This document shows, in pieces, positions 26,770-50,987 of a stretch of 64,000 nucleotides of DNA. Numbering within the stretch: the first letter of the stretch is position 1; each line of letters opens with the position of its first letter. The notes below the pieces were generated by a model that saw only the letters and a program-made list of their open reading frames with translations, was not told the origin of the DNA and ran no database searches. Position numbers and translations under genes: made by a program. The DNA comes from Sulfuricystis thermophila. Lineage in GTDB: Bacteria > Pseudomonadota > Gammaproteobacteria > Burkholderiales > Rhodocyclaceae. The stretch covers positions 496,001-560,000 of the forward strand of contig NZ_AP019373.1 of assembly GCF_004323595.1 (NCBI RefSeq), in the 5' to 3' direction.

Positions 26770-26927
26770 CGATGACGGTGACGATATACCGCTGCAGAAG
26801 ATGAAACCGGTGGGCCGTCTGGCTCATGGTTCGCGGCTGGGGCGGCCGTACTCGAAGCTTCACGCCCGTCCTTTCGCCCCGATTGCCCACGGCGGCGAAC
26901 TGGGGCATAGTTGACATGCTTGCTCAT

Positions 26928-27069
26928 AGCTTGTGAAAAAATTCGTCGCGAGCGGGCTGATGGCAAGGCGCCCGGAGCGCAGCGACCGAGACATAACACG
27001 GAGTTAGGCGAGGGAGCGAGCACCGCGCAACGCAGCCAGCGGGCCGCGCAGCAGAATTTTTCACAAGCT
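26928..27069. mobile_element. MITE-like element, copy A
   Basis: About 142 bp, bounded by inverted repeats AGCTTGTGAAAAAATTC (26928-26944) and GAATTTTTCACAAGCT (27054-27069), which are complementary apart from one A/T. They are flanked by CTCAT and CTCAC. The core has GGCGCCCGGAGCGCAGCG, then CCGAGACA, a variable dozen bases, and AGGCGAGGGAGCGAGCACCG followed by CGCAACGCAGC. The same core, inverted, is at 50789-50930. No transposase or credible protein is encoded. It lies in the 331-bp gap between leuD and cfa. The rest of that gap (26770-26927 and 27070-27100) shows nothing recognisable apart from TTGACA at 26911. Confidence 0.8.
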
Positions 27070-27100
27070 CTCACTTCTTCGTGGTGATGGGGAGGCATGC

Positions 27101-50773: not shown

Positions 50774-50788
50774 GGCGTTTCATTCTAC

Positions 50789-50930
50789 GAAACCCCTGCG
50801 AAACTTGCTGTGCGGGCGGTCTGCTGCGTTGCGCGGTGCTCGCTCCCTCGCCTATCTATCTGATATGTCTCGGTCGCTGCGCTCCGGGCGCCGAGCTATC
50901 ATCCCGCTCGCGGCGTTTCGCAGGGGTTTC
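50789..50930. mobile_element. MITE-like element, copy B
   Basis: 142 bp, bounded by perfect 16-bp inverted repeats GAAACCCCTGCGAAAC (50789-50804) and GTTTCGCAGGGGTTTC (50915-50930). It is flanked by the direct repeat TCTAC (50784-50788 and 50931-50935), as expected of a target-site duplication. In reverse orientation its core matches copy A at 26928-27069 over about 70 bp, apart from a variable middle. The ends do not match copy A. Small open frames through it are not credible genes. It lies between the FAD oxidase gene and the tRNA-Tyr promoter; the rest of this 257-bp gap holds only that promoter. Confidence 0.85.
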
Positions 50931-50987
50931 TCTACGTCCCGGCTGGCCGCTACTACGACGTTTCGTGAATCGGAAACCGGATTGCCA

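Follow-up and report, generated by a model that had tools for sequence, protein, structure and literature searches.

Two short elements of the window, the 64,000-nucleotide stretch of the Sulfuricystis thermophila genome analysed here, are best explained as non-autonomous MITEs belonging to a widespread, modular superfamily of hairpins, in which the core is kept through its part in spreading and the ends are exchangeable. We regard this explanation as a whole as reasonably well founded. That the two elements, copy A and copy B, are MITEs bringing their own ends is close to certain. Judged from sequence comparison, the terminal inverted repeats (TIRs) of the hairpin family have been exchanged several times while the predicted folded middle stays conserved. 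We hypothesize that the core has a role in the spread of the element, and the structured core is probably selected through that spread.

Copies A and B and their insertion sites

The interiors of copies A and B, compared in a genome-wide search, match at 90% over 90 nt in opposite orientation (E value of 2.7e-29). Their ends are unrelated, and within each copy the two arms are perfectly complementary, over 13 nt in copy A (26928-26940 and 27057-27069) and over 16 nt in copy B (the two B-type TIRs of Table 1), so that both observations of the first-pass annotation, a shared inverted core and unrelated but self-complementary ends, are confirmed. Family comparison gives the true extent of copy A as 26927-27070, with T, not G, as the terminal base at 26927. 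Copy A is bracketed on its left and right by TCA and copy B by TCTAC. On the strand with the GA-rich core, the predicted RNA fold of each copy is a single long rod in which small loops break the helix, and it is far more stable than the folds of dinucleotide shuffles (z values of -3.45 for copy A and -6.77 for copy B).

Empty sites are present in congeners. At the site of copy A, congener G002 reads GACATGCTTGC-CCA-CTTCTTCGTGG, where TTGC-TCA-(element)-TCA-CTTC is found here. At the site of copy B, congener G004 reads TCATTCTAC-GGAAAG and has one TCTAC as against two here; the G004 sequence immediately to the right of the insertion point is diverged. Neither orthologous empty site (A in G002, B in G004) contains a palindrome, and each has a single copy of the target.

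Table 1. Positions of copies A and B and of their parts in the window
Feature	Positions	Strand	Basis
Copy A, complete element, A-type ends	26927..27070	+	TIR pair, target duplication, empty site in congener G002
Copy A, left target duplication TCA	26924..26926	.	Flanking repeat; single CCA at G002 empty site
Copy A, right target duplication TCA	27071..27073	.	Flanking repeat
Copy A, left A-type TIR	26927..26944	+	Common to 39 elements
Copy A, right A-type TIR	27053..27070	+	Common to 39 elements
Copy A, core hairpin	26970..27028	+	Covariation and kept loops in 58 relatives
Copy A, helix P2, 5' side GCGACC	26982..26987	+	Partner GGGAGC 27012-27017; ten fully paired versions among relatives
Copy A, GA of GA/GA internal loop	26988..26989	+	Partner GA 27010-27011; GA/GA in 53/58 elements
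Copy A, apical stem TAAC/GTTA and 5-nt loop	26994..27006	+	Middle pair U-A, C-G or A-U
Copy B, complete element, B-type ends	50789..50930	-	TIR pair, target duplication, empty site in congener G004
Copy B, target duplication TCTAC	50784..50788	.	Flanking repeat; single TCTAC in G004
Copy B, target duplication TCTAC, other side	50931..50935	.	Flanking repeat
Copy B, B-type TIR, GAAACCCCTGCGAAAC read on +	50789..50804	-	Present in 10/10 B elements
Copy B, B-type TIR, opposite end	50915..50930	-	Present in 10/10 B elements
Copy B, core hairpin	50831..50889	-	Same core as copy A, opposite orientation

Terminal-repeat families and candidate transposases

The core and the ends were searched through the 2.74-Mb genome holding the window, and the ends were then paired in inverted orientation. 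The resulting 64 elements, 47-229 bp long, fall into five TIR families, with A-type (GAGCTTGTGAAAAAATTC, 39 elements), B-type (GAAACCCCTGCGAAAC, 10 elements), C-type (GGAAACGCTGAAGAAG, 10 elements), D-type (GAAACCTCTGCATAAC, 4 elements) and E-type ends (AACAGGCTGTTGAAAAAC, 1 element). In some of the A-ended elements a second core, A2, is found that resembles the first only distantly. The elements are short, multi-copy, non-coding and bounded by TIRs, and, as expected of MITEs, they show target duplications and, for copies A and B, empty sites in relatives. Because A and B ends each recur in many copies, the ends are family features rather than per-copy inventions. The view that the ends of A and B set them apart from ordinary MITEs thus does not hold, the ends being fixed within each TIR family. 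One fixed terminal sequence, which the first-pass annotation had named as an outcome that would speak against it, was found in part: fixed ends do exist, but as several sequences and not as one.

Target duplications differ between the families. The A family duplicates 3 bp (exact in 23 of 39 elements, mostly TCA or TGA) and the B family 5 bp (7 of 10). Counts from related genomes give duplications of 4 bp for the C family (14 of 31), for the E family (5 of 11) and for F, an additional sixth family with ends GGGCACCTCG (17 of 27), where fewer than 0.6 would be expected. The length of a target duplication is set by the transposase, and the family-specific lengths thus point to no fewer than three kinds of transposase.

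In the mechanism that we propose, transposases of different insertion sequences would mobilise the element in trans by recognising ends that match their own, C- and E-type ends being served by IS5-family transposases and A and B ends by further transposases, and the ends would change when a lineage comes to use a different transposase, through adaptation or through recombination. The core would be retained for helping spread, its most likely form being a folded strand in which GA-mismatch loops are conserved, and selection would act on the spreading copies, not on each inserted copy.

Complete IS5-family elements carry some of these ends. One of about 1.33 kb with E-type ends (TAGCAGGCCGTTGAAAAA) lies near 1.891 Mb in this genome, another with C-type ends (GGGAAACACTGA ... 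TCAGCGTTTCCC) and adjoining CTAG is found in congener G017, and D-like ends (GGGAAGGTCTGCACAAC) occur on IS5-family elements in more distant members of the order. The C-, D- and E-like ends have a common layout, and three of the IS5-type transposases found with them exceed the cut-off of NCBIfam IS5 model NF033581 by a wide margin. The E-ended element of this genome and the C-ended one of the congener are plausible helpers, and their matching ends suggest that C- and E-ended elements are mobilised in trans. On plasmids, an end search reached an IS5 transposase from E-type ends only. Scanning 150 relatives by TIR pattern gave no autonomous partner for A or B ends, and no A, B or F ends were found on IS5_3-family transposase elements in 300 relatives; this lack of a helper with A or B ends in the relatives searched counts against the proposed explanation, as does the seeding of our collection with part of the core.

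A 1450-bp pair of A ends (L193, 1956260-1957709) was rejected as an autonomous element. It is an A2 hairpin broken near its apex by an element with a 418-aa ORF (VVGIDIAKQTFDAA), which we take, from its protein inspected by eye, to be IS110/IS1111-like; such an insertion fits the palindrome preference of that group. Three A-ended derivatives of 49-51 bp (L126, L128 and L199, at 988555, 1258914 and 2149607) have a common junction, GTCGCGAGCGCAGCAG, which would result either from three moves of a single mini-element or from three separate recombinations between GCGCAGC repeats. An extra short repeat, (C)CCGCCAGCGCCGAGTTT or its complement, adjoins several A and C copies (L007, L013, L027 and L122), and in the case of L013 it leads into a solitary B-type end (385452-385467). 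A Pseudomonas veronii plasmid carries another short hairpin (L327, ~2501-2645), whose ends are E-like (AACAAGCCGTTGAAAAAC) and whose interior is unrelated, the usual situation among ordinary MITEs.

Conservation and pairing of the core

The core was found in 31 of the 150 genomes searched, this genome counted, and at least 120 stretches match a pattern of the apex and one arm. Among the matches listed are Rhodocyclaceae, Tepidiphilus, Tepidimonas, Halothiobacillus, relatives of Thiobacillus and Gallionellaceae, together with Geobacteraceae, Desulfuromonadales and two Nitrospirota MAGs. The hairpin family spans several phyla, the outer limits of its distribution being provisional because MAG contigs may be misbinned.

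Covariation was calculated over 58 elements, selected at below 88% pairwise identity in a first alignment and then realigned. Over the 49 pairs of the whole hairpin, 90.6% of cells are paired and 34 pairs change on both sides. The pairing of the collected copies covaries strongly, as the first-pass annotation had anticipated, with a score of 0.431 for the whole hairpin as against 0.140 after shuffling and 0.070-0.119 with partners slid by 1-3 columns, and of 0.202 for the core, where shuffling gives 0.055 and sliding no more than 0.051. Covariation is seen in three of three helices, including core helix P2, which occurs in ten fully paired versions, a few of them with G-U (GGATGC/GCATCC, GGAACC/GGTTCC, GCACCC/GGGTGC, GCAGGC/GCCTGC and GGCCCC/GGGGCC are examples), and also in forms mismatched at the centre (GCGACC/GGGAGC). 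The covariation of P2 is not a product of query bias, because the scan pattern left P2 open. The GA/GA loop beside P2 is kept in 53 of the 58 elements and a GCA/GA loop in 46; tandem GA flanked by C-G pairs forms a stable mismatch motif. Counts of G-U and A-C pairs show no clear strand bias, the helices pointing opposite ways.

In the same 58 elements, mean column identity is lowest at the outermost TIR (48%; 55% over the whole TIR), intermediate in the middle stem (67%) and highest in the core, where it reaches 86%, or 93% once P2 and the apical loop are set aside; the core values are inflated since the collection was seeded with part of it. Same-family copies within this genome keep the core no better than the TIR, which also counts against the proposed explanation: the B copies show no changes in 306 TIR positions and 19 in 603 core positions, and the A1 copies 16 in 509 and 23 in 1005. 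Absence of per-copy conservation combined with long-term conservation would fit selection through propagation.

Parts of the core are combined with different ends. A TACC-ATACA-GGTA apex is shared by A- and C-ended elements and a TACC-TGGTA-GGTA apex by B- and C-ended ones, the two P2 types are found with C as well as D ends, and an insert module (AAACGAAGTTTCGGCG...) occupies the identical arm position in A1, A2, B and D elements. The nearest core belongs to a same-TIR element of another genome in 76 cases versus 14; core exchange between TIR families is occasional, and homogenisation of cores within a genome is unsupported by these counts. At L073 (1992803-1993053), an E-ended element directly precedes a chimera that is C-type at its left end and A-type at its right; the junction apparently lies at the common insert module.

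The alternative that survives best, which we rate as possible yet clearly less probable than the explanation proposed, is that arm-to-arm template switching in replication (quasipalindrome correction) renews complementarity and that the core is shared by descent only. Copying a mutation of one arm to the other would yield covariation without structural selection, and hairpins are known to arise and be repaired by template switching (PMC8794818). Consistent with it, three of the 39 A copies have private changes matched at both ends (permutation p value of 0.003), and G-U and A-C pairs are without clear strand bias. Neighbouring copies in a Nitrospirae MAG (L305, 5596-6746; three in 1.2 kb, with tips GGGCACTTCTAAT, GGGCACGCCCGAA and GGGCACCGCTCAA) also differ by several adjacent bases that are largely matched at their far ends. 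However, most changes that the A arms show over their first ten bases, 34 of 37, are unmatched (17 left, 20 right, 3 matched). Template switching would also erase mismatched loops, whereas GA/GA and GCA/GA are kept at the frequencies given above while P2 between them occurs in ten paired versions; because these specific mismatched loops persist, it is not the whole story. The interpretation in the first-pass annotation is upheld in part. Covariation in relatives is strong, and the middle and core stems speak better for structure than the ends do. For the ends, selection for a base-paired stem in RNA or single-stranded DNA is possible, but transposase recognition already explains their complementarity, matched private changes being confined to the three A copies.

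Somewhat less probable still is a single old element whose ends followed, by drift, an IS5 transposase lineage as it diverged, core conservation being mainly a query effect; neither end exchange nor a core function would then be required. The same-TIR affinity of nearest cores points to such coherent TIR lineages, the C-, D- and E-like ends are alike in layout and sit on IS5-family elements, and part of the core was in the scan pattern. Yet duplications of 3, 4 and 5 bp are hard to obtain from one drifting transposase, apex and P2 variants are mixed across TIR families, and covariation in the core helix, left open in the pattern, does not come from query bias.

It is unlikely that the host has adopted the core as a regulatory RNA, a terminator or a site of RNase III processing and that inserted copies are kept for their usefulness. 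Many A copies do lie at TGA/TCA targets adjoining ORF ends, and passages of a review describe Correia and ERIC transcripts as RNase targets (PMC10969869), but the cores of same-family copies are as diverged as their ends, the sites of A and B are not common to congeners, and Rfam covariance models give no match up to an E value of 5 around copy A. Insertion into the loop of pre-existing palindromes, the other origin of unrelated complementary ends first suggested and favoured only by the ends of the two window copies, has next to no chance of being right, being contradicted by identical ends at dozens of unrelated sites and ruled out for both window copies by palindrome-free empty sites with one target copy.

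Within the reading of A and B as modular MITEs, a more specific proposal, tentative and rather doubtful, is that the core acts as a portable functional cassette, folding as RNA or as single-stranded DNA with conserved tandem-GA loops, and aids spread under any transposase; the core would for this reason be retained under at least three kinds of target duplication and in several phyla. Counting against a need for the core, the A-ended derivatives of 49-51 bp lack it and sit between intact duplications. The core may thus be dispensable for A-type transposition, unless these derivatives were deleted in place between GCGCAGC repeats.

Usual MITEs are defined by their ends and their interior decays, whereas here the interior is conserved and covarying and the ends are exchangeable. 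Should this hold under unbiased sampling, selection of a MITE interior for spread becomes testable, as does the route by which a short element changes both ends together toward a new transposase. It also cautions that covariation in a bacterial repeat does not have to signal a host RNA.

Comparison with known elements

Correia (NEMIS) and ERIC elements resemble the present family as short imperfect palindromes in many copies whose transcripts are able to fold. To our knowledge, each has one characteristic terminal sequence, and we know of no core common to unrelated ends among them. The Chunjie MITE of Geobacter uraniireducens is likewise bacterial, has tens of copies and comes from a group that also carries the core described here; it is set apart by its description in passages of the review cited above (178-235 bp, conserved TIRs; PMC10969869), not by sequence. 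The passages of this 2024 review of prokaryotic MITEs matched by key terms contain nothing similar, and no description of the hairpin family was found in the openly accessible literature searched.

IS5-family insertion sequences and their derived MITEs are similar in that complete IS5-family elements match the C- and E-type ends and the YTAR-like duplications of 4 bp. They differ in that the hairpin interior does not appear to be a deleted transposase gene, and for A and B ends, with duplications of 3 or 5 bp, no IS5 partner was found in the relatives searched.

The closest precedent found is that of the CMITEs of Acropora corals, piggyBac-related elements whose interior, in the parts of their description considered here, is more conserved between families than their TIRs (PMC2872659). 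The same relation is seen in our collection (86% in the core and 48% in the outer TIR, query bias included), and cross-mobilisation by several transposases has been proposed in those passages for CMITEs (PMC2872659). CMITEs are eukaryotic, however, and their TIRs all keep the piggyBac CCYT tip, whereas tips and duplication lengths vary here; unlike for these hairpins, the same passages describe no covarying structure (PMC2872659). MITEs as such are known; a conserved structured core with exchangeable ends is what appears to be new here.
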